From Pseudopedobacter saltans DSM 12145 (GTDB taxonomy: Bacteria; Bacteroidota; Bacteroidia; Sphingobacteriales; Sphingobacteriaceae): a DNA stretch of 64,000 nucleotides. The DNA lies in assembly GCF_000190735.1 (NCBI RefSeq), contig NC_015177.1:1-64000 (forward strand), read 5' to 3'. How positions within the stretch are numbered: position 1 is the stretch's first letter; each line of letters begins with the position of its first letter. The notes below the pieces were generated by a model. It did no database searches and was not told the DNA's origin. It worked only from the letters and a program-made list of their open reading frames with translations. Positions 40,269-62,235 of the stretch are shown piece by piece. The position numbers and the translations under genes were made by a program.

Positions 40269-43103
40269 ATGAAATATTTATACCAGATATTTATTCCCCT
40301 TATAGCGATAGTTACACTGGCTTTTACTAACAGTGACAATCCGGTTAAACAATCTTTTACGCTACCTGAAAATATTTCCTACGGAGATTATTTACCTAAT
40401 ACCATTATTGTTAAATATAAAAGCTTACCTGTTGCTACTTTGGCAGAGAGACAGGTAACTTCCAAAGAACTTTCCGGTATTGAAATTATATCGATGAAAC
40501 CCGTGATAACTCAGCCCCTTAGAACATTGTCATATGCTGAGCAATCGAAGATTGACGATAATGGATTAAACAGAATTTATGCTATAAATTATAAATCAAA
40601 AAGAAATATTGAGTCTGTGATCAATCAGTTTTTAGCTGATGAAAATGTTGAATATGCCGAACCAAGTTATGTTTCAAAAACACTGGCTAGCCCAAATGAT
40701 CCATTTTTTATAGGTGGCTCACAGCCTTATCTTAATCAGGTTAAGGCACCGCAGGCATGGAATATACAAAATGATGCAAACGCAGTAGTCGTGGCAGTCA
40801 TTGATACCGGATCAGAACTGGCACACCCGGACCTGGCTGCAAATATTTTTATCAATTACAATGATCCTATAAATGGTATTGATGATGATGGCGATGGTTA
40901 TGTAGATAATTATTATGGTTGGGATTTTGGAGGGGCCAGTTTAAATTCAACCCCGGATAACGATCCCAATGTTAAGGGGGCTGATGCAGATCACGGTGTG
41001 CATGTCAGCGGGTTGGTTTCGGCAGTAACAAACAACGGAATAGGAGTGGCAAGTATCGCAAAGAATGCAAAGTTGATGATTCTTAAAGCCGGTGTAGACG
41101 ATGTGCCCAGAAGTGTATATTATGGTTATCAAGCAATTATTTATGCCGCAGATCACGGTGTGAAAATTATCAATTGTTCCTGGGGGAGTAATGGAAGAAG
41201 CAACTTCGAACAGGAAGTAATTAATTATGCGGTCAGCAAAGGTTGTTTGGTTGTAGCTGCGGCAGGTAACGACGGTAACGAAGTACCCGTTTATCCTGCG
41301 GCATATAGTGGAGTATTGGCAGTAGCAAATGTAACCGCTGAAGATATAAGAAACGGAGGTTCAAGCTATGGCTTTCATGTAGGAATCTCCGCGCCGGGGA
41401 CATCGATTTTAAATACCACTTTTTCTGGTAGCTATGGCGTAAAAAGCGGTACTTCCATGGCAGCACCTTTAGTATCGAGCGCTGCAGCTTTAGTTGCTGC
41501 GAAATATCCCAATCTTTCTGGCGTACAAATTGGCGAGATTCTGAAACAGAGCACAGATGATATATATTCAATAACTCAAAATCAGGCTTATTTAAACAAG
41601 TTGGGAACCGGGAGACTTAATGTCGAAAAAGCGTTAAGCATAGCGGGAGGTCCTGCCTTGAAAAAACAGGGAATACTGATTCATGACGAAACAGGTTCGT
41701 TAATGGCTCAAAGTACAGCAACGTTTGATATAAGAGTCAAAAATATACTGTCGGATGCCAATGACGTTTTTGTCGAACTGGGATCTTTAAATGCTAATGT
41801 TAAAGTTGTTAATGGAAAAAGGCCTGTGGGATTCATGGCTGAAGGGGAAGAAAAGGAAATTAAGGGTTTGAGTGTGGAAATCGGAAATATCGGAGAAAAT
41901 CAGGACGTGGTGTTTTATCTGGAGTACACTTCGAGTACACAAAATTATCGCTACAGAGAGTATTTTTCTGTTCCTATGAACAGAGATTACATTAACTATA
42001 GCTCTAAAGACCTGGCTACAACAATAACCAGCAATGGGAGAGTAGGATACAGTGATTTTGGAACAGAACAAGGTCAGGGATTTAATTATAAAGGTAGTAA
42101 CCTGTTATACGAATGTTCTTTGATGATAGGCAACGCCAACAATCGGGTGTCTAATAATACGCGTGTAGATGGCCATGCTGACGAGCATTTTGTGAAAGTA
42201 AAAAGGGCACAACGGAAGTCTGCTGAATCCGGAGAGTTTTTAGCAGAATCTGTATTTAATGACTCCAATAGCCTATTTCCGTTGTCGGTGGAGGTTACTC
42301 ACCGACATGTTTCTAAAGAAGATCAGGACTTTATTTTAGTTGAATATGAAGTGAAAAATACCGGAACCGAAGATTTGAACAATGTTTATTTGGGACTGTT
42401 TTCCGATTGGGATATCGGTGAAAGTGATAAAAACATCACCAAATTGAGCGAAGAAAACAGATTGGCTTATGCTTGCCCGGCAACCAATGCGCAAACCTTT
42501 GGAGGTTTAAGGTTGGTAACCGATCAGAAATTGAATTATTATCCAATGTCTTACATGATTCCGGGGGATTTTCTGGAAACAGGTGACTTCACTATTGAAG
42601 AAAAATACTTAAGCTTATCCAGTGGGATTGCTAAAAGGAGCCTGGGAGATGCATATGCTAACGGTGCAGATATCATGTATGTTTTAGGCGCTGGTCCATT
42701 TAAAATCCAAAAAGGTGAATCGGAAAGAGTAGCCTTTGCCTTTTTAGCCGCAGATAAACTGGACGATTTGATCGCTACCTCGCAAGCTGCACAAAAGGCA
42801 TATGATGTTTGGGCTGAAAAAAGTAAGATTGTTAAATATGCCCTGATGCAAAATTATCCTAATCCGGTTATCAAAAGTAACAACCCAAAGACAACTATTA
42901 ATTTGGAACTTCCTGAAGACAGTATGGTAACACTTAAAATTATAGATTTATTTGGCAGAGAATTTAAAACGGTTTGTCATCAAAAACTAACCCAGGGGAG
43001 ACATGCCTTTGAAGTTGATATGAGTAATGCTTTACCCGGAATCTATTATGGTTATGCCAATTTTAATGGTAAAATAGCAGGTATTAAAATAGCCGTTGAA
43101 TAA
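40269..43103 (+). CDS. Secreted subtilisin-like S8 protease with T9SS type A tail
   Basis: The 944-residue protein has a signal sequence, a propeptide-like region with 'NTIIVKYKS' and 'FLADENVEYAEPSYV' (inhibitor I9/fervidolysin-like), and an S8 catalytic domain. The triad is Asp in 'VAVIDTGSE' near 178, His in 'DADHGVHVSGL' near 241 and Ser396 in 'GTSMAAP'. Calcium-type segments such as 'NGIDDDGDGYVDNYYGWD' follow the Asp. A large middle region has beta-rich modules. The last 90 residues ('ALMQNYPNP', 'IIDLFGREFKT', 'LPGIYYGYANF') form a T9SS type A sorting domain, so it is secreted or attached at the surface. It is a single gene. Confidence 0.94.
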   Translation: MKYLYQIFIPLIAIVTLAFTNSDNPVKQSFTLPENISYGDYLPNTIIVKYKSLPVATLAERQVTSKELSGIEIISMKPVITQPLRTLSYAEQSKIDDNGLNRIYAINYKSKRNIESVINQFLADENVEYAEPSYVSKTLASPNDPFFIGGSQPYLNQVKAPQAWNIQNDANAVVVAVIDTGSELAHPDLAANIFINYNDPINGIDDDGDGYVDNYYGWDFGGASLNSTPDNDPNVKGADADHGVHVSGLVSAVTNNGIGVASIAKNAKLMILKAGVDDVPRSVYYGYQAIIYAADHGVKIINCSWGSNGRSNFEQEVINYAVSKGCLVVAAAGNDGNEVPVYPAAYSGVLAVANVTAEDIRNGGSSYGFHVGISAPGTSILNTTFSGSYGVKSGTSMAAPLVSSAAALVAAKYPNLSGVQIGEILKQSTDDIYSITQNQAYLNKLGTGRLNVEKALSIAGGPALKKQGILIHDETGSLMAQSTATFDIRVKNILSDANDVFVELGSLNANVKVVNGKRPVGFMAEGEEKEIKGLSVEIGNIGENQDVVFYLEYTSSTQNYRYREYFSVPMNRDYINYSSKDLATTITSNGRVGYSDFGTEQGQGFNYKGSNLLYECSLMIGNANNRVSNNTRVDGHADEHFVKVKRAQRKSAESGEFLAESVFNDSNSLFPLSVEVTHRHVSKEDQDFILVEYEVKNTGTEDLNNVYLGLFSDWDIGESDKNITKLSEENRLAYACPATNAQTFGGLRLVTDQKLNYYPMSYMIPGDFLETGDFTIEEKYLSLSSGIAKRSLGDAYANGADIMYVLGAGPFKIQKGESERVAFAFLAADKLDDLIATSQAAQKAYDVWAEKSKIVKYALMQNYPNPVIKSNNPKTTINLELPEDSMVTLKIIDLFGREFKTVCHQKLTQGRHAFEVDMSNALPGIYYGYANFNGKIAGIKIAVE

Positions 43104-51251: not shown

Positions 51252-54200
51252 ATGGATATAAACTCTACTCCAAAGAGATTTGTTACTTTTTTTAAGAAGA
51301 AGGCGCTTTTTTTGTTTATTCTGTTAAGTCTTTTTGCCCAATCATCGTTTTCTCAACAACACAATGAATATTGGACAAATAACGGACGTGTGTTAACGGA
51401 CGATTATAGGATTAATTTCAAGTGGAATAGACTACCAGATTGGGGAGGATCGGACAACCAAAGTAATATGCAAATTAAATTAGGACTGGATGGCCAAGAT
51501 CAAGTACATATCTATAACGTAACTACTACAGGGTCTTTTTTTCGTTCTGATTCTGTGTTTCGAGCCATAGGTCCTAATCGTAATTATAGTTATTGGTTAA
51601 AATACGTTACTGAAGAAACTGATTATGTATTTACTCAGGAATTACATTGGGCGGAGATATCAGCATCAGGTACAACACCAAAGCTTAAAGCTCCTAAAAA
51701 TGTTAAAATAACAGAGACTCCAAATATTTCGAAAGGGCAGGTTTATCCAACAATAACCTGGGAAAAGCAAACAGCTGTTCCAGATGCGCACATCAGATAT
51801 AATGTTTATAGGAAAAAAGGAAATGAAGCTGCAGTGTTATTGGCTAATCTTTCTGCACATGTATTTAGTTATACAGATGATTCTTTAATAGAATCTGCAG
51901 ATTATACCTATTCGGTACAAACTGTTTTGGCTCTGGATAATACACCTGTTGGATGGAACAGTAATCCTGCTACTGATTTCGATCCTGCGGTAGTCGCCGG
52001 GACTTTTAAATTCTCTAACGCAGATATTACTACAACACTAGATCAAAATGGAAGAGTAAGATTAAGCTGGAATCAGGTAAGAGGAATTGCGGGTTTAGAA
52101 AATTTAGTATTATATAGAAATGGAGAAGAATTAGTTCAATTTTCAAAAAACACTACCTCTTATAACGATTCTGATATATTACCGGGGATGTTTTATCAAT
52201 ATTCTATCGGGTATATTACCGATGGGCTTTCCGGAATTGATTATGAAAATTGGAGATCTAAAACTTTCGATGGTAAATCTCAGGCCAATGGGAAAATTAG
52301 TGGATATGTTAAGGGTAAAACCAATGCCGGGGTAGAGGGTGTTGTTGTTACAGCAACAACAAAATCAAACGTTTATAACGGTAAGACTACCGAACCTTAT
52401 ACCTACAGCGCAACAACAGATGCTTCTGGGTATTACGAGATCACTAAAGTTTTTTATGGGGAAGGGGCCAATTATGAAATGAGACCTCAAATGCCAGGTT
52501 ATAATAAACCTAGGTTTGACCCGGAAAAGCTGTCCAGAAGTTTGTCATTTGATGAGTCGAACCGGCAAAATGTAAACTTTACAGATACAGCTTCTTTCGC
52601 TATTAACGGCAGGGTAAGTTTTGCAGCTATCAAAGATTCTCTGGATAATGATGTTTTTCTGCCAGTGCAAGATGCCGAAGTTTGGTTAAACGGAAAGAAT
52701 TCGGCCGTTAAGACAGACGCAAAAGGACTTTATAGTTTGTCTATTACCAATGCTGGTTTGTATACCGTTCAAATAAAATATAAAGATCATCCTATATATT
52801 TTAGTGGTACAACTGATACAGTAAAGTCGTTGTATGTTAATAATTTGATGTCTAACGTCGATTTTATTGATACAAAAACAGATACTTTAACTATAAAAGT
52901 TGCGGCAAGTTGCGATGCTCCAATTGGAGAATATGTGACATTCTTGTTGAAATCAGAAAATGCTGGCTATGTATCGGCAAATTCTTCTGCAAAATATGCG
53001 AAAAAATTGCATATCAGCTCCAATGATTTAGAAAGCGGAAGCCCTAAAAATCCTGGTCAGCCGACGAGAGGAGAGGTAAAGGTTATTTTACCAGCTACTT
53101 CTTTCGAAGGTCAGGTTCTTCAAATTTCCGAAAAAGGAGGTATCAACTCTAATAAACTAGAGTATTTTACCAAAACTTACAATATACAAAAGGTTAGTTT
53201 GGCAGAACGCTTGAAGGAACAGAAGATAGACACGACCTACAGTATAAAGACTATTAAGGCCGATACTACCTTTAAGCCAGATGGTAGTATATATAAAATT
53301 ATACCTTCAAGAAAGGATACTACAATCAATGTAGATACAACATATCTTGTTAAAAAGCCTTTAATGGATTTTATTTATCATGACAAACTCAAAGTTCTGG
53401 TAAATAATAACAATCCTGCTTTTGTAGATTCTGTTCAATTTGCACCTGGTAATACCTATAAGTATTTATTAGCTCAAAATGACAAACACCTTATAGATGT
53501 TAAAATTCAAGAGACTTATACTTATGATGGTATAACTTATAGTTGTACTTTGGATACAGGAACTGTATATATATATGATGGTATTTCGGATCTCGTGGAT
53601 AGAAAGGAATATGCTTTAGATAAGATAAGCAAAAATGTGAGGCATACGATCAAGGTAGGTAATCCAGTTTTAGAAGCTCCTTATGAAAAAAATATACAGA
53701 TTGTCGGAAAGGTAGGAAGTAGGCAGGCGAGTGCTATTATCAATGCAGTAGTAGAAGGTGAAAGGCCTCGTAACGCAACATTTGTTAGTAGAACACCTAG
53801 CATTCCATTTTTTGTGTTACATGATCCTCCCGGAGACAGATCATACGCTAAAATAAGTAAAGGAACTACATTTTCTAAAACAGGTACCACTTCGTTCAAA
53901 TTTGGAGGAGGGGCCGGAGCTTATTCAGATATCAAAGCTGGGGTAGGTTCAAATATTCCTTTTGTTGGTAAAACAGGAGGAGGTGTCCATATACAAGCAA
54001 AAATGGAAGCTGGCAGAGATAATAATGAGGGCCTTGTAACGAACACCACATTTACCTTTACTGAAGATTTTTATACATCAGGCGAACCAGAATTTGTAGG
54101 TGAAGACGGAGATGTTTTTGTAGGAGCATCTATGAACATGGTTTATGCCATGACCGATGTGTTGAAATACGATGCTTCCAAGAAGGGAATGGTTAGAGAT

Positions 54201-57200
54201 ACGTCAGTTGCCATGAATTTGAATGACTTTGGGACTGTTTTCGTTTATACTCAACATCACATAAAGAACGTCTTGTTACCTCAATTAAGAACATTGTATT
54301 CTATATCAAAGACTAAGTATGACGAAGCGTACTTTAAGCTGAAAAGCAATAGCTCATCTATTAAACCAGAAGAGGTTGATAAGTTGAAGAGAACATATTC
54401 TGAATACGAGGCAGATATTACAGGCTGGGAGAAAACTTTAGAAGAAAATAAAAAGGATAAAGCGCAAGCAGGAGAAATAAATGCAGGTGAGAACCTTAAG
54501 GGAATTGTTGGGAACAATATTTCATTTAGTGCGGGCGCAATTTATGAGAATACCTTAACAACACAAAAAGATACTACGGACGTTACCGAAACACAAATTT
54601 ATTTAAACACCGAAGGTAATGTAGGTGGTTTTGTGAATAGTGGCGAATCAAACGAAAAGGAAATTGGAGCTTTATTCTCGCTGAGATTCAATTGGGATTC
54701 AAGTACCGAAACTACCAACGGTAATACACAAACTACTTTCTATCATTTAGAGGATGATGATATTGGCGATTTCTTTTCGGTAGACTTAAAGAAAAATAAA
54801 AAATATGGTACTCCTGTTTTTAAAACAGTATCAGGTTCATCCAGTTGTCCACATGAGCCTGGAACTCAATATCGCCATCTGCCAAATATCGCGGTAAGCG
54901 GAGCGAACGAACAACGTAATGTTCCTTCGGATCAACCAGCAAAATTTGAGGTTTTAATCTCAAATAGAAGCGAGAGCGATGAGACCGTAGAGTACGGTAT
55001 TAAGTTAATACCAACTAGCAATTTAGGAGGAGCGAGAGTATTAGTAGCGGGTCAAGATGTGACGAATGGTCAGGCTAACTTTGTAATACCAACCGGTAAG
55101 AGTTTCAAATTACCAGTAGAGGTTTATAGAGGAGCATTATATAGTACCTATGAGGGCTTAACTTTAGCAATGTTCTCTGCATGTGATAACTCATTGGAGG
55201 ATGTTGATGATGATAATATAGCAAAACCAACCGTTAAACTGAATGCCTATTTCCAAAATAAGTGTAGTGAAATAGATTTGTTCTTACCAGGTAATAACTG
55301 GTTGGTGAATCAATCTAATGGTAATAAGCTGTATGTAGCGTTTAGCAAATTTGATGCGTCGGAAGCTTCTCCGTTAACAAGTGTTGCTTTACAGTACAGA
55401 AGAATTAATCAGGATTATGAGAATTCCTTATGGCAAACGGCAATAGATATTCCTAAATCAGAACTTAAGGATAAGTATTATGATTATACTTTTGATGTAA
55501 GTACGCTTCCTGATAGTAAGTATGAATTACGGGCTTTGGCTATTTGCGAAGGCGTAGATGTAAATTATTCTCCTGTATATACTGGAGTAATTGATAGATC
55601 TGCAGCGATAGCATTTGGTCTGCCTACACCTTTAAACGGTATCTTGACTACAAGTGATGTGATGAGCGTGACCTTTAATAAGGATATCACAAACTCAGCA
55701 AATGTAGTTTTAAAACGTAAGGATAATGGACAAATTATTCCTGCGACACTTGTTTACAACGATAAAACTATCGTGATTAAGACAGTTCCGGAAGCTGCAA
55801 TTGCAGATTATGAGATGATGGAGTTGAATGCTACAGTTAAGAATCTTAGAGATGGTAGTGGAAATGTTCTAACAGATAGCGTTTCATGGAACTTCGTTGT
55901 CAATATGAGTCCAATTTACTGGTCTCCGGCAAATATCGATGTTAATGCTATTGAAGGTGTTCAATCTAGCTTTAGAGCTAAATTGGTAAACAAATCGGCA
56001 CTAAATCAAAACTTTAGAATAGAGAGATTTCCAAGTTGGTTAACGCCGTCTATACGTAATTCCAGGATTGTTCCACTAGGAGAACAAAATGTGGATTTCT
56101 TAATAGATCCAAACTTAAATACAGGAACCTATACCGACACGGTATTTACCACTTGTGATGGTAAAAGGCAGTTGTTATATGTTACCGTAAATGTGCTTAA
56201 AACACCACCAAACTGGGCGGTAAATCCATCTAAATTTAGATATAACATGAGTTTTGTTACTCAGTTTAGTTTAGACGATACTGATGTAGCGACTTCTACA
56301 GATATCAGAGATATTATGGGAGTTTTTGCTGGAGACGAATGTAGAGGTTTAGCAAATATAGAATATGACTATGCAAGCAAAAAGTATGTAGCTTACGTAA
56401 CAGCGTATGCTAATAAATTAAGTAACGAGAGTTTAAGTGTGCGTTTCTGGGATACTTATCCGGGTATAGAATATCAAAGTAAAGAGCGAATAAACTTTGT
56501 GTCTAACGGAATTGTGGGCAACGGGAATAATCCTTATATATTACATCCAGAAGGGGTTTTCCAAACAATACCTTTAAAAGCAGGTTGGAACTGGGTTTCT
56601 CTAAATGTCGAAAATGCCGACATGAGAGTAAGTAAGGTGTTCAGTAAACTAAAACCTACTAGCGGTGATATTGTAAAAACCTTAAGTGCTAAAAAACCTT
56701 ATGCACAATATAATGCTAAAACTGGCTGGACGGGACCTCTAGATTCATTAAATATTTACCAGTCTTATATGGTATACTCAGCTAAAGCTGATACCATAAG
56801 AGTTTTAGGACAATTGGCTAGCCAAAGAGTAGACGTAGAGTTGAAAGATGGTTGGAATTGGCTAGGCTACCCTATGGCGGTAAATATGGAGCTTAATAAT
56901 TACTTGAAAAATTATAGCTTCTCTGATGGTGCTACCGTTAGCAGTCAAGAGGAATTTGCACAATACAATGCAGCTTCTCAAAGATGGTCTGGTAGTTTGA
57001 AATATTTACGTCCAGGAAAAGGGTATAAATATTTTGTAGAAGGAGATCATTATGCTATACCGGTGGTCACTTATCAGCCAGATTTAAGTCCAAATATACT
57101 GGCAGATATTCCGCCAGTGAAAACCGGAATACAAAAAGTTATTGCATTCGATAATGCAATGGACGTGAACGATGTGAATAGTGGTAATCAGGTGAACTTA

Positions 57201-60200
57201 GATATAGCCAGATTTGAAAATAACATGTCTTTAACGGCAAAAATTAACTTAAACGGTTTAGATATTACTGAACCAGGGAGGTTTGAGATTTTTGCTTATG
57301 TAGATGGCGAATTGGTAAATTATGTAGATACTTTAGTAAATGGGTTAAGTTTTGTATCCATAAATAGTAATGTGGAAGGGGAAGATAAACCCGTTGTAAT
57401 TAAAATTTACGATAGAATAACAGGAAGAACATATACTGCAAAATCTGATTTACCAGCAACGCCTCAACCGGCTCCACAGCAGCGAATGATGTTGAGAACG
57501 ATGTTAAGAAGTACAGCTCCGGTAGATGAACCTATTACTACACAAAGAGCAGATGAAGTCTTAGGTACGCCAGAGCATCCTGTTTCTTTTAAAGTGATGG
57601 GCGACGCTGATATTGAGGTTTACAATAGCATCAGCAGAAACCTGATTAATATTGGCGATACGCTAAAATATACCCTGAAGTTCAAAAATTTAGGACCAGA
57701 TGTAGCGGTAAATTCGGTATTAGTAGATACATTAAGTAGCGGATTAGAGTTTGTTTCTGCGACGAATGGTTTAACCTATGATGCGGCAACGAATACCTTA
57801 AAGGCAACTAAATTGCAATTAGGAGTAGATGAAATAGCTGAATATAAAGTTGTGCTTAAAGCATTAACTGTAGGTAATAAATTCTTTGGAAGAGGAGCTG
57901 TATCTTCAAATAATGATGTAGATGATTCTAACAACAGTTTCATCAGGCATACAGTAAGTGTTGCAGACCGTAGGGCGGATGTATACGTAGAAACGCAAAT
58001 TAATCGAAACAAGTTATACAAAGGCGAAGATTTAATTTACACCATTAAAATTAAAAATAACGGGCCTGATGTGGCTAAAAACGTTACTTTAGTAGATGCG
58101 ATTCCAAATGAATTTGAATATGTAACCGCATTAAATGGTACGGTTAATTTTACTAAAGCTGGACAAATCGTTAACCTATCTCAAGCTCAAATACCATCAG
58201 GAGGAGAGGCAGTCTATTCGCTGTTATTAAAGGCAGTAGATTTTGGAAATGTCAATCTAGGCCTGGGCCATGTTGCTGCGTCAAATGATAATAATATCGA
58301 CTTTGATAACAATTCGATGAATAAGCAGCAAGTCGAAATTTTAGATAACAGAGTTGACTTAGTGATAAGTTCTGAGGTTTCTAAACCACGTTTAAATATT
58401 GGTGATTTGATGAAATATACCATCGTCATTAAAAATGTGGAACAGGATTTTGCAATGAACTATAACCTGGTAGATACCTTAAGTACAGCATTTGAATTTG
58501 TTTCGGCGACAGGTGGAATCACATATAATGCATCAAACCGTACTTTAACGGCCGATAAAGCTAAAGTTAATGGAGAAGAGGTAATTCGCTACGAAATAAC
58601 TTTGAAAGCCGTTGCCGTAGGTAATCAAAAGATAGGTGCTGGTTTGGTAACGGTACTTAATGATATCAATCTTGACAATAATAAGGTAAACGTAATTCCG
58701 GTAATTGTTGAGGACAGAAGGGCAAATGTTTGGGTAAATACTCTGATAAGCAAAACGAAGTTAAATAAGAGTGAAGAATTAGTTTATACCATTAATGTAA
58801 GCAATAATGGACCAGATATAGCTTACAACTTTAAGCTACAAGATATCCTTCCAGCAGGCTTTGAATTTGTGTCTTCAACAGGAGGATTGGCTTATGATGC
58901 CGCAACAAGGAAAGTTTCTGCAAGCAAATTGCAAATGAAATCGGGTGAGGAAATTTCCTATACGGCAACCTTAAAAGCTTTAACCAATGGAACTTTCTTA
59001 TTGGGGAATGGAAATATAGCTGCTGATAACGATAATGATATCGATTTTGATAATAATACAATCAGCCAGATTGCTGTTGTTGTCGGAGAAAATAATGTGG
59101 ATTTTGCAGTAACGAAAGCCTTAAGCCGCAATCGTTTAAATATCGGAGATCAGTTAACATACACATTAAGGGTTAAAAATAACGGACCTGATTTTGGAAT
59201 AAATTATAACTTGACAGATACCATAAGCTTTGCCTTTGATATTGTTTCTTTATCAGACGGATTGTCATTTGATATCAATAAAAGAACATTAACAGCAAGC
59301 AAAATACAAGTTGCTGCCGGAGAGGAGTTACACTATCAGGTAGTTTTAAAAGCCAATGCTGTAGGCGTACAAACTTTGGGCAAAGGTTTAGTTACCGTTT
59401 TTAACGACACCGATTTATCTAACAATAAAATTCAGCATACCAATGTAAATGTAGTTGATAGAAGAGCTAACGTTTGGGTAAGCAATCAGGTTAGTACAAA
59501 TCAATTAAATAAAAGTGAAGAGCTTACCTATACCTTGTTAATCAGTAACAGCGGTCCGGATGTAGCTAATAATTTTAAATTACAAGAAAGCATTCCGGCA
59601 GGTCTGGAGTTTGTACGAGCTACCGGCGGTATAAAATATAATGCAACAAACAATACGATTACAGCTAGTAAACTTCAAATTAAATCTGGAGAAGAAGTAG
59701 AATATACAGTGGTATTGAAAGCGATAGTTGCGGGTACTATAAAGCTGGGTAACGGAGCAATTGCAGCTGATAACGACAACGATGTTGATTTTGACAACAA
59801 TTCGATCAGCCCAATATCAGTTAATGTAATTGATAATAATGTTGATTTTGCTGTATCGTCAAAAGTGAATCGTCAGCGTTTAAATATTGGAGACGAATTG
59901 GTTTACGCTGTTTCAGTAAAAAATAATAGTGCCGATTTTGGTATCAACTATAAGTTAGTAGAGACTTTAAATAAAGCATTCGAGTTTGTATCTGTGACTG
60001 GAGATGCTGTTTACGACGCTATAAAACATACTGTATCTGCAACTCAAACAAGAGTTGAAGCAGGAACTAATTTAGAATATCAAATCTTATTGAGAGCGAA
60101 GACAGTAGGAACCCAACTTTTAGGAAATGGATTGGTATCCGTTAATAACGACATCAATCTTGCTAACAATACTTTCGCTCCGATAGCTGTTGAAGTAGTG

Positions 60201-61232
60201 GACAAAAGAGCAGATGTTACGGTAACCAATGTAATTAGCCGCAGCCAGTTAGCCAAGGGAGAAGAATTAACTTATACCATTAAAGTGAGAAATAATGGTG
60301 TCGACTTAGCGAAGAATGTAATGCTAAAAGATATCTTGCCATCAGGTTTAGAGGTGATATCGGTAGCAGGAGATGCTAGTTTTAATGCTGCAACAAGAAT
60401 GCTATCAGCGAGTAGGTCGACTCTTCTTGCTGGACAAGAAGCTATTTATGCTATTACATTGAGAGCAAATGGTGTTGGTGTATTCCAATTAGGTAATGGT
60501 GCGGTAAATGCTGATAATGATAATGATGTTGATTTTGATAATAATACCATCCCTGCTTTAAATGTTAACGTAATAGATAACAGTGTTGATTTGGTAGTAA
60601 GTAGTCAGGTTGATAAAGCAAGCCTAAACATAGGTGAAGTATTCAACTATAGTATCAAGGTTAAAAACAACGGACCTAACAATGCAATAAATACGGCATT
60701 AGCAGATCAATTACCTGTTTCATTCGATTTTGTGTCATCATCTAATAATATTACTTATGATCGTGAAACAAGAACACTAAAGGCTACACAAGCCAATATT
60801 AATGCTAATGAAGAGGTAGTATATACCATTAAACTTAAAGCAAATACTTATGGCGTACTGATGTTAGGTAATGGTGCTGCCACAACTTTAAATGAAAGTA
60901 ACGAATCCGATAACAAGGTAGGTTTAGTTTCTGTAGAAGTGGTAGACCCTAGAGCTACAGAAGCAAAAATTCTTATCCCAACTTTATTTACCCCTAACGG
61001 AGATGGAATCAATGATATGTTTGAAATATTGGGGTTAAATGAATATTACGTGTCTAATAGCTTAACTATCTTTAATAAGAGCTACAATGTGGTTTACAAA
61101 AAAGACAATTATCAGAACGATTGGACAGGAGATAGATTACCAATGGGCTCATACGGCTATATCCTGAAAACAGTAGATAAAACGGGTAAAGAGCGTGTGT
61201 TTAAAGGAACGGTAACAATTATTTACCAATAA
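51252..61232 (+). CDS. Giant T9SS type B surface protein with nine DUF11 repeats
   Basis: The 3326-residue secreted protein has a signal peptide ending near FSQQ and FN3-like modules (about 145-345). Two carboxypeptidase-regulatory-like domains follow ('ISGYVKGKTNAGVEGVVV', 'NGRVSFAAIKD', about 349-540), then a long unassigned middle with a short coiled coil near 1015-1075. An Ig-like Big_5/SbsA type domain lies near 1450-1550, and two 'GWNWV/LxYP' modules near 1780 and 1866. After a Pro-rich linker, nine DUF11 repeats (about 2118-3232) precede the final 90 residues ('PTLFTPNGDGINDMFEI', 'IFNKSYNVVYKKDNYQNDWTG', 'PMGSYGYILK'), a CHU_C gliding-type T9SS sorting domain. It is probably an adhesin. 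The PorP/SprF gene downstream is its usual partner. Confidence 0.93.
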   Translation: MDINSTPKRFVTFFKKKALFLFILLSLFAQSSFSQQHNEYWTNNGRVLTDDYRINFKWNRLPDWGGSDNQSNMQIKLGLDGQDQVHIYNVTTTGSFFRSDSVFRAIGPNRNYSYWLKYVTEETDYVFTQELHWAEISASGTTPKLKAPKNVKITETPNISKGQVYPTITWEKQTAVPDAHIRYNVYRKKGNEAAVLLANLSAHVFSYTDDSLIESADYTYSVQTVLALDNTPVGWNSNPATDFDPAVVAGTFKFSNADITTTLDQNGRVRLSWNQVRGIAGLENLVLYRNGEELVQFSKNTTSYNDSDILPGMFYQYSIGYITDGLSGIDYENWRSKTFDGKSQANGKISGYVKGKTNAGVEGVVVTATTKSNVYNGKTTEPYTYSATTDASGYYEITKVFYGEGANYEMRPQMPGYNKPRFDPEKLSRSLSFDESNRQNVNFTDTASFAINGRVSFAAIKDSLDNDVFLPVQDAEVWLNGKNSAVKTDAKGLYSLSITNAGLYTVQIKYKDHPIYFSGTTDTVKSLYVNNLMSNVDFIDTKTDTLTIKVAASCDAPIGEYVTFLLKSENAGYVSANSSAKYAKKLHISSNDLESGSPKNPGQPTRGEVKVILPATSFEGQVLQISEKGGINSNKLEYFTKTYNIQKVSLAERLKEQKIDTTYSIKTIKADTTFKPDGSIYKIIPSRKDTTINVDTTYLVKKPLMDFIYHDKLKVLVNNNNPAFVDSVQFAPGNTYKYLLAQNDKHLIDVKIQETYTYDGITYSCTLDTGTVYIYDGISDLVDRKEYALDKISKNVRHTIKVGNPVLEAPYEKNIQIVGKVGSRQASAIINAVVEGERPRNATFVSRTPSIPFFVLHDPPGDRSYAKISKGTTFSKTGTTSFKFGGGAGAYSDIKAGVGSNIPFVGKTGGGVHIQAKMEAGRDNNEGLVTNTTFTFTEDFYTSGEPEFVGEDGDVFVGASMNMVYAMTDVLKYDASKKGMVRDTSVAMNLNDFGTVFVYTQHHIKNVLLPQLRTLYSISKTKYDEAYFKLKSNSSSIKPEEVDKLKRTYSEYEADITGWEKTLEENKKDKAQAGEINAGENLKGIVGNNISFSAGAIYENTLTTQKDTTDVTETQIYLNTEGNVGGFVNSGESNEKEIGALFSLRFNWDSSTETTNGNTQTTFYHLEDDDIGDFFSVDLKKNKKYGTPVFKTVSGSSSCPHEPGTQYRHLPNIAVSGANEQRNVPSDQPAKFEVLISNRSESDETVEYGIKLIPTSNLGGARVLVAGQDVTNGQANFVIPTGKSFKLPVEVYRGALYSTYEGLTLAMFSACDNSLEDVDDDNIAKPTVKLNAYFQNKCSEIDLFLPGNNWLVNQSNGNKLYVAFSKFDASEASPLTSVALQYRRINQDYENSLWQTAIDIPKSELKDKYYDYTFDVSTLPDSKYELRALAICEGVDVNYSPVYTGVIDRSAAIAFGLPTPLNGILTTSDVMSVTFNKDITNSANVVLKRKDNGQIIPATLVYNDKTIVIKTVPEAAIADYEMMELNATVKNLRDGSGNVLTDSVSWNFVVNMSPIYWSPANIDVNAIEGVQSSFRAKLVNKSALNQNFRIERFPSWLTPSIRNSRIVPLGEQNVDFLIDPNLNTGTYTDTVFTTCDGKRQLLYVTVNVLKTPPNWAVNPSKFRYNMSFVTQFSLDDTDVATSTDIRDIMGVFAGDECRGLANIEYDYASKKYVAYVTAYANKLSNESLSVRFWDTYPGIEYQSKERINFVSNGIVGNGNNPYILHPEGVFQTIPLKAGWNWVSLNVENADMRVSKVFSKLKPTSGDIVKTLSAKKPYAQYNAKTGWTGPLDSLNIYQSYMVYSAKADTIRVLGQLASQRVDVELKDGWNWLGYPMAVNMELNNYLKNYSFSDGATVSSQEEFAQYNAASQRWSGSLKYLRPGKGYKYFVEGDHYAIPVVTYQPDLSPNILADIPPVKTGIQKVIAFDNAMDVNDVNSGNQVNLDIARFENNMSLTAKINLNGLDITEPGRFEIFAYVDGELVNYVDTLVNGLSFVSINSNVEGEDKPVVIKIYDRITGRTYTAKSDLPATPQPAPQQRMMLRTMLRSTAPVDEPITTQRADEVLGTPEHPVSFKVMGDADIEVYNSISRNLINIGDTLKYTLKFKNLGPDVAVNSVLVDTLSSGLEFVSATNGLTYDAATNTLKATKLQLGVDEIAEYKVVLKALTVGNKFFGRGAVSSNNDVDDSNNSFIRHTVSVADRRADVYVETQINRNKLYKGEDLIYTIKIKNNGPDVAKNVTLVDAIPNEFEYVTALNGTVNFTKAGQIVNLSQAQIPSGGEAVYSLLLKAVDFGNVNLGLGHVAASNDNNIDFDNNSMNKQQVEILDNRVDLVISSEVSKPRLNIGDLMKYTIVIKNVEQDFAMNYNLVDTLSTAFEFVSATGGITYNASNRTLTADKAKVNGEEVIRYEITLKAVAVGNQKIGAGLVTVLNDINLDNNKVNVIPVIVEDRRANVWVNTLISKTKLNKSEELVYTINVSNNGPDIAYNFKLQDILPAGFEFVSSTGGLAYDAATRKVSASKLQMKSGEEISYTATLKALTNGTFLLGNGNIAADNDNDIDFDNNTISQIAVVVGENNVDFAVTKALSRNRLNIGDQLTYTLRVKNNGPDFGINYNLTDTISFAFDIVSLSDGLSFDINKRTLTASKIQVAAGEELHYQVVLKANAVGVQTLGKGLVTVFNDTDLSNNKIQHTNVNVVDRRANVWVSNQVSTNQLNKSEELTYTLLISNSGPDVANNFKLQESIPAGLEFVRATGGIKYNATNNTITASKLQIKSGEEVEYTVVLKAIVAGTIKLGNGAIAADNDNDVDFDNNSISPISVNVIDNNVDFAVSSKVNRQRLNIGDELVYAVSVKNNSADFGINYKLVETLNKAFEFVSVTGDAVYDAIKHTVSATQTRVEAGTNLEYQILLRAKTVGTQLLGNGLVSVNNDINLANNTFAPIAVEVVDKRADVTVTNVISRSQLAKGEELTYTIKVRNNGVDLAKNVMLKDILPSGLEVISVAGDASFNAATRMLSASRSTLLAGQEAIYAITLRANGVGVFQLGNGAVNADNDNDVDFDNNTIPALNVNVIDNSVDLVVSSQVDKASLNIGEVFNYSIKVKNNGPNNAINTALADQLPVSFDFVSSSNNITYDRETRTLKATQANINANEEVVYTIKLKANTYGVLMLGNGAATTLNESNESDNKVGLVSVEVVDPRATEAKILIPTLFTPNGDGINDMFEILGLNEYYVSNSLTIFNKSYNVVYKKDNYQNDWTGDRLPMGSYGYILKTVDKTGKERVFKGTVTIIYQ
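57606..60950 (+). repeat. Nine tandem DUF11 repeats in an alternating A/B pattern
   Basis: Repeat starts are at about 57606, 57969, 58344, 58712, 59088, 59457, 59831, 60200 and 60574. The odd copies (A) begin with a 'DxxVDxxxS' strand and then 'LNIGD'. The even copies (B) begin 'RRAxVxV' with 'LxKxEEL' and end in an Asp/Asn-rich 'DNDNDxDFDNN'. The step alternates between about 368 and about 375 bases. Confidence 0.85.
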
Positions 61233-61266: not shown

Positions 61267-62235
61267 GTGAATATTTTAAAAAGAATATATCTATTGCTAA
61301 GTGTAGTTACACTTAGCAATATACAACAAGGCAAAGCCCAAACAGAATTTCAAGGCAGTCAGTATCTGTTAGATAAGTCTTACATCAACCCGGCATTTAT
61401 GGGACTTCATACCAAAGCTTCTGCAAACCTACAGTATCAGGTTGCAGGAACAGGGGAAGTAAGTGGTGCGAAAAACTATACCGTATCTGCTGCCGGGCAT
61501 TTCAGTTTACCTAAACTGAGATGCGCCATCGGCTTTAACGCGGTAAAAAATACTTTTGGAAACGATAGTTACAGCGTAGGCTACGGTAATTATGTTTATC
61601 ACTTACAGGTTTCAGAAGATATCATTATGTCGTCTTCATTGGGTTTGGGGTTACAGCAGTATAATATAAATCTTTATGATCAGGTAACTGCAAATCCGCT
61701 AGACCCTTTAGCAAGGCAAAATGTCTATAGTTCTAAATTAGATGGGCGTGTTGGCCTGTTGGGAACCCTAAAGAAACAATACTACTTAGGACTTTCTTTT
61801 GATAATATATTGTCTTTATATACCAACAATAATAGTTTTTCCTATCAAGTGCCTCCTACTTTCCGTAAGATTAATATGTATTTAATTTTGGGAGCTAATT
61901 ACGAGACGGAAGACAATTTAGTAGTGATGCCCTCTGTTTTATTTATTAAAAATATGGGAGGTATTACTTCTTTGGATATCAATACTTCTATTATGATGGA
62001 AAAGTCATTTGTTTTAGGAGTAGGATTTAGGCAACGTGTTGAAGAGCGAAATTCATTTATGGGAGCCGATGAAAAAAGTATATCACAATCCATTTTAAGA
62101 GCCAATATGTCTTATCAACTGAATAATGTTAAGAATAATATGAGGATAGGTTACTGTTATAACTTTAACGCGGCTAAAAGTGGTGTTAAAGTAGGAAGTC
62201 ATGATATTTCGCTTTCTTTTAGTATGCCTCATTAG
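61267..62235 (+). CDS. PorP/SprF family T9SS outer-membrane protein
   Basis: The 322-residue protein has a signal peptide ending near GKAQ, then 'GSQYLLDKSYINPAFMG', the typical PorP/SprF start. Barrel-type strands follow, with the closing 'RIGYCYNFNAAKSGVKVGSHDISLSFSMP'. These proteins assist the secretion or surface attachment of a specific T9SS type B cargo, usually the one encoded next door. It lies 34 bases after the giant protein gene, and this pairing is very common in Bacteroidota. The start is a GTG at 61267, since no ATG gives a complete signal peptide. Confidence 0.92.
   Translation: MNILKRIYLLLSVVTLSNIQQGKAQTEFQGSQYLLDKSYINPAFMGLHTKASANLQYQVAGTGEVSGAKNYTVSAAGHFSLPKLRCAIGFNAVKNTFGNDSYSVGYGNYVYHLQVSEDIIMSSSLGLGLQQYNINLYDQVTANPLDPLARQNVYSSKLDGRVGLLGTLKKQYYLGLSFDNILSLYTNNNSFSYQVPPTFRKINMYLILGANYETEDNLVVMPSVLFIKNMGGITSLDINTSIMMEKSFVLGVGFRQRVEERNSFMGADEKSISQSILRANMSYQLNNVKNNMRIGYCYNFNAAKSGVKVGSHDISLSFSMPH

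Follow-up and report, generated by a model that had tools for sequence, protein, structure and literature searches.

One DUF11 domain in relatives, nine in Pseudopedobacter saltans: a surface-protein stalk probably lengthened by copying a two-domain unit

A giant protein of Pseudopedobacter saltans DSM 12145, encoded in the window (the whole stretch of 64,000 nucleotides analysed, positions 1 to 64,000 of NC_015177.1), carries nine tandem DUF11 domains, whereas its seven long orthologues each carry one. The array is best read, from the sequences of its repeats and relatives, as a founder domain followed by four two-domain B-A units (1 + 4 x 2 = 9), and we consider it probable that a founder followed by a B-A pair copied to four lengthened a surface stalk of the type IX secretion system (T9SS). 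The locus gives a clean before-and-after view of how a bacterial surface stalk can grow, with one domain in seven relatives versus one plus four two-domain units here, while the rest of the gene and its partner are conserved.

The open reading frame (ORF) encodes, in order, an N-terminal leader with a carboxypeptidase-regulatory-like part, a long middle region that is conserved across orthologues, the nine DUF11 domains and a CHU_C end (Table 1). DUF11 (PF01345) matches nine stretches of the protein in Pfam (E 6.7e-111, 365 bits in total vs a cut-off of 24.6), and the repeats listed in a DUF11 search of the same genome are each singly above the cut-off. The first-pass annotation had placed the array at 57606-60950, which was right to a few bases; the boundaries given here are cuts at conserved starts and run from 57603 to 60944. 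The sorting domain at the protein end is recognized by PF13585 (E 1.3e-18, 67.3 bits, cut-off 27) and by TIGR04131 of NCBIfam (36.1 bits, cut-off 35), and it is 62-81% identical to that of the orthologues. By its CHU_C end and the linked PorP/SprF gene, the protein is classified as a T9SS substrate with a type B C-terminal domain (CTD). Type B CTD proteins bind or require cognate PorP/SprF-like proteins (PMC9143113, PMC12618676), and the PorP/SprF-family protein encoded next to the giant ORF is likely its cognate shuttle or anchor. The P. saltans genome (4.64 Mb, one contig) has DUF11 at no fewer than three further places; other long DUF11 proteins lie at C1 4384500-4404000 (frame of 2014 residues) and C1 3212000-3231500 (6438 residues), loci L120 and L121, respectively. 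Also in the window, an ORF of 944 residues at 40269-43103 encodes a putative subtilisin-type secreted protease.

Table 1. Positions in the window of the giant ORF, its repeats (with their place in the proposed B-A units), the sorting domain and the adjacent gene.
Feature	Positions	Strand	Length	Basis or remark
Whole ORF	51252-61232	+	3326 aa	Nine DUF11 domains, CHU_C end (ORF list, Pfam)
Repeat 1 (A1 by motif)	57603-57965	+	121 aa	Proposed founder; orthologous to the single DUF11 of relatives; tree 96/91 with O196, 50% identity
B1, opens B-A unit 1	57966-58343	+	126 aa	B clade 96/94
A2, closes B-A unit 1	58344-58712	+	123 aa	Sequence boundaries, tree
B2, opens B-A unit 2	58713-59087	+	125 aa	Closest is B3 (63%)
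A3, closes B-A unit 2	59088-59456	+	123 aa	Lys at isopeptide position
B3, opens B-A unit 3	59457-59831	+	125 aa	Predicted fold matches 9IFR
A4, closes B-A unit 3	59832-60200	+	123 aa	Sequence boundaries, tree
B4, opens B-A unit 4	60201-60575	+	125 aa	Sequence boundaries, tree
A5, closes B-A unit 4, adjoins sorting domain	60576-60944	+	123 aa	Sequence boundaries, tree
CHU_C / type B T9SS C-terminal sorting domain	60945-61229	+		PF13585, TIGR04131
PorP/SprF-family gene, next after the ORF	61267-62235	+		TIGR03519 (NCBIfam), E 3.5e-32, 112 bits

A search with the middle part of the protein as query identified seven long orthologues from the same family, spread over four other genera (G196, G402, G494, G021, G072, G018 and G020; frames of 2259-2480 residues), which are 46-63% identical over this part, or 39% in the most distant. 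All seven have exactly one clear DUF11 domain, immediately before CHU_C, and in all seven genomes a PorP/SprF gene directly follows the orthologue. The difference in frame length, about 850-1070 residues, is close to eight added domains. Among the 17 congener genomes examined no orthologue of this kind was found (G007 is a distant relative, 29%), and no intermediate copy number was found. When the array was compared with 150 relatives, its best non-self match was the single domain of an orthologue, as were three of the four best matches. In another family, genome G091 encodes four or more paralogues of this middle region at about 30% identity (L109, L110 and L111), with no matching CHU_C or PorP/SprF within the stretches searched.

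Within the array, two types of repeat, A and B, follow each other in turn. As had been claimed from the sequence at the outset, short and long repeats alternate strictly (Table 1) and so do their end motifs, a short ND...NN-type loop in A and (D/N)DN(D/N)xDFDNN in B, from which B1 deviates (SNDNNIDFDNN). The claimed alternation of start motifs holds for repeats 2-9, which begin with D/E-N-x-V-D or with D-R/K-R-A, but not for repeat 1, which starts with DADIEV rather than VD. Parts of the start motifs are not type-specific: NxGD also occurs in O196, the single DUF11 domain of the closest orthologue, G196, and in DUF11 domains of Cytophagales, K.EE occurs in O021, and several orthologues open their linker to the sorting domain with the DKRA seen in B4. 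Pairwise identity among the nine repeats is 47-64% in DNA and merely 31-63% in protein, and because of the latter Tandem Repeats Finder detected no array over them. In the autocorrelation of identity across the repeats, mean amino acid identity at lags 1-8 is 36.3, 47.9, 38.5, 45.7, 37.0, 42.3, 36.5 and 37.2, and lags 2, 4 and 6 exceed their neighbours in both protein and DNA. In addition, among all two-group splits of the repeats the alternating one ranks first of 246 on DNA and second of 246 on protein, where the sole better split is A2-A5 vs the rest. Thus, the alternation is real.

The copies also cluster by type in a maximum-likelihood tree of the full-length repeats, where A and B do not intermix: B1-B4 are monophyletic (96/94) and A2-A5 weakly so (80/88), in data that are short (about 123 columns) and have long branches. 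The expectation that A copies should cluster apart from B copies is borne out on the full length but not on the core columns alone, where the B clade is lost, although not rejected (p-AU 0.28), and the A2-A5 clade is weakly rejected (p-AU 0.046). Repeat 1 stands apart from both types, since it pairs with O196 (Table 1) and is equally far from A2-A5 (40.9% identity) and from B (41.7%), which is why the array is taken to consist of a founder and four B-A units. The first-pass annotation had proposed that a two-domain unit was amplified and had counted repeat 1 as an A copy; the pair itself is supported, but repeat 1 is not an A copy, so a B-A phase after the founder is more likely. For B1-B4 and A2-A5 the best quartet topologies are the same, (1,4)(2,3), as expected from B-A pairing, with the middle units closest and with small likelihood differences that are not significant, whereas those of A1-A4 and B1-B4 disagree. 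The A-B phase was judged less likely on account of this disagreement and the pairing of repeat 1 with the orthologue. On the full length, holding A1-A5 together is not rejected (p-AU 0.156), and Mantel correlations do not separate the phases (6/24 and 7/24 permutations as high); the preference for B-A over A-B pairing follows weak likelihood differences.

Two other histories of the array need to be weighed against a founder with four copied pairs. One may argue that the domains were duplicated singly and that neighbour fit later produced the alternation, through selection acting at the N-terminal strand and at the loop that precedes the last strand, to which gene conversion of these ends may have added. 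The distribution of differences fits this view, as the A/B excess of identity amounts to 20 points in the first 22 columns (54-55% within types vs 28% between) and 12 points over the last 22, compared with just 4 points for the core, and the two clades are absent from core-only trees. Nevertheless, even the core has higher identity within types (43.0 and 44.4 vs 38.3 for A2-A5 against B, with the alternating split in 5th place of 246), B2 and B3 are still sisters on the core (92/89), and four arrivals at a near-identical 11-residue B loop are less simple than copying, so that single duplications appear an unlikely source of the pattern. Under copying of B-A pairs, the pair members would have diverged mostly towards their ends, in the first strand for A2-A5 and in the acidic loop ahead of the last strand for B. 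Since the difference lies mainly there and core-only trees lose the B clade, selection on neighbour fit, or conversion at the ends, may have contributed to the origin or the maintenance of the two types.

Alternatively, recombination could have brought in a ready-made alternating block from a different protein, in which case the array would not have grown from a founder. No intermediates are seen, the gene is absent from the 17 congener genomes, and the saturation of synonymous sites would allow the block to predate its present place. Against this, the array's best non-self match in the 150 relatives is the single domain of an orthologue, and repeats 1-9 group together with O196 (89/95), apart from the DUF11 domains of other proteins. 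Moreover, a two-domain period is absent from other DUF11 arrays of the family, two long ones (26 and 19 DUF11) and two shorter ones, in which identity falls with distance. An import is thus quite improbable, more so than single duplications, and growth from a founder by B-A pairs is the history that we prefer.

The amplification is old. At four-fold sites, A pairs are identical at a frequency of 0.344 vs 0.343 expected from codon usage, and B pairs at 0.350 vs 0.344, and the longest stretch that two units share exactly is 17 bases. Identity at chance level and exact matches of at most 17 bases rule out a recent amplification and make variation between strains by slippage unlikely; hence the suggestion that repeat number could vary at present finds no support. 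Giant DUF11 proteins also occur in two Cytophagales MAGs, one of more than 7400 residues with about 57 DUF11 domains (L040, JAAFJP010000005.1) and one of more than 8300 residues with about 49 (L039, JAAFIU010000018.1). L040 contains a higher-order unit of four domains, whose copies reach 98-100% identity at lags 4 and 8, and the same unit is faint in L039. The L040 array thus resembles that of P. saltans in having a higher-order unit, but by its near-identical copies it is a recent amplification, unlike the P. saltans array, and the isopeptide lysine is kept in those of its domains that were checked.

An AlphaFold model of B2-A3-B3-A4 has a mean pLDDT of 89 and a pTM of 0.45; the domains are therefore well predicted and their mutual arrangement is not. 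B3 is predicted to fold like the DUF11 domain of crystal structure 9IFR (Z 14.4, rmsd 1.9 Å over 115 residues), and the repeats are thus predicted to have a CnaA-like Ig beta-sandwich fold. This structure was found by fold and with a Cytophagales DUF11 domain as query, and searching solved structures by sequence, either with B3-A4-B4 or with the B loop alone, returned nothing meaningful. Long Foldseek matches to integrin alpha legs were rejected, as their rmsd of about 9-27 Å over several domains reflects only strings of Ig-like domains. The isopeptide triad of 9IFR consists of Lys 715, Asp 748 and Asn 806 (PMC12617251). The acid column holds D or E in all nine repeats, the lysine column holds Lys in one of nine (A3) and in none of the seven orthologues, and the array as a whole does not carry the triad. 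Absence of the isopeptide bond is already known within the DUF11 family (PMC12617251), so the membership of the repeats stands; with the fold kept without the lysine, the stability of the array must have another source. A3, the only repeat with the isopeptide Lys plus Asp and NN, could be the one domain of the stalk that is cross-linked.

The acidic motif of B forms a loop before the last strand in the model (at about residues 104-119 and 352-367), where confidence is lower than anywhere else in the chain (pLDDT about 73 in B2 and 57 in B3, modelled without metal), and the linker to the next domain starts about ten residues after it. An earlier view of the acidic B ends as joints between domains is not supported by this predicted structure. 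Judging from Ig topology, the loop should lie near the N-terminal pole of B, by the preceding A domain and the basic D(R/K)RA start, and its acidic motif may bind calcium or pair with the arginines of that start. A stalk without an isopeptide lock could then have two alternating domain types, two kinds of joint and a metal-binding loop in every second domain, with calcium-dependent stiffness in two-domain steps, but we regard this design as doubtful.

The ancestral protein, as we picture it, had one DUF11 domain ahead of its sorting domain. Behind this founder, now repeat 1, a new B-A pair would have been gained and later copied to four pairs, resulting in nine domains, eight of them added, and about 990 extra residues. 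The giant protein would be exported to the cell surface by the T9SS via its type B C-terminal signal and is probably held there by the PorP/SprF-like protein of the adjacent gene. DUF11 arrays are typically adhesin stalks (PMC12617251), and the array probably serves as a lengthened spacer that holds the rest of the protein further off the outer membrane. This mode of growth is well known and a fairly ordinary route to a longer bacterial stalk.

DUF11 adhesin stalks, type B CTDs with PorP/SprF partners and multi-domain duplication are already known; what is new is the clear one-to-nine comparison, a founder that is not part of the repeated unit and an array in which most domains lack the isopeptide lysine. 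The domains known as DUF11 or CLIPPER (PF01345; 9IFR, PMC12617251) likewise occur as tandem copies in long surface proteins beside a sorting domain, but their isopeptide lysine is missing in eight of the nine P. saltans repeats and in all seven orthologues. SprB/SprF and other type B CTD and PorP/SprF pairs share the very long protein, the type B CTD and the PorP/SprF gene directly downstream (PMC9143113, PMC12618676); with SprB/SprF the architecture alone is common, there being no gliding evidence for the P. saltans protein. The E-G5 array of SasG in Staphylococcus aureus (PMC4458895) also alternates two types in an extended surface rod without covalent cross-links, but E and G5 are different domains, whereas both types here are DUF11. 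Calcium-stiffened extenders of RTX adhesins and SiiE (PMC7493085, PMC4083281, PMC5466336) similarly combine tandem Ig-like domains with acidic loops; in RTX adhesins calcium has been shown and lies in linkers, whereas the putative metal motif of P. saltans is in the loop before the last strand. Duplication by units of several domains has been described for nebulin (seven), fibronectin III (four), and Ig and some zinc fingers (two), two domains being the commonest unit reported (PMC1553488). The P. saltans array shares with these cases the even-lag identity peaks and the two-domain unit, but differs in belonging to a bacterial T9SS surface protein, in its very diverged units and in a founder that lies outside the unit.
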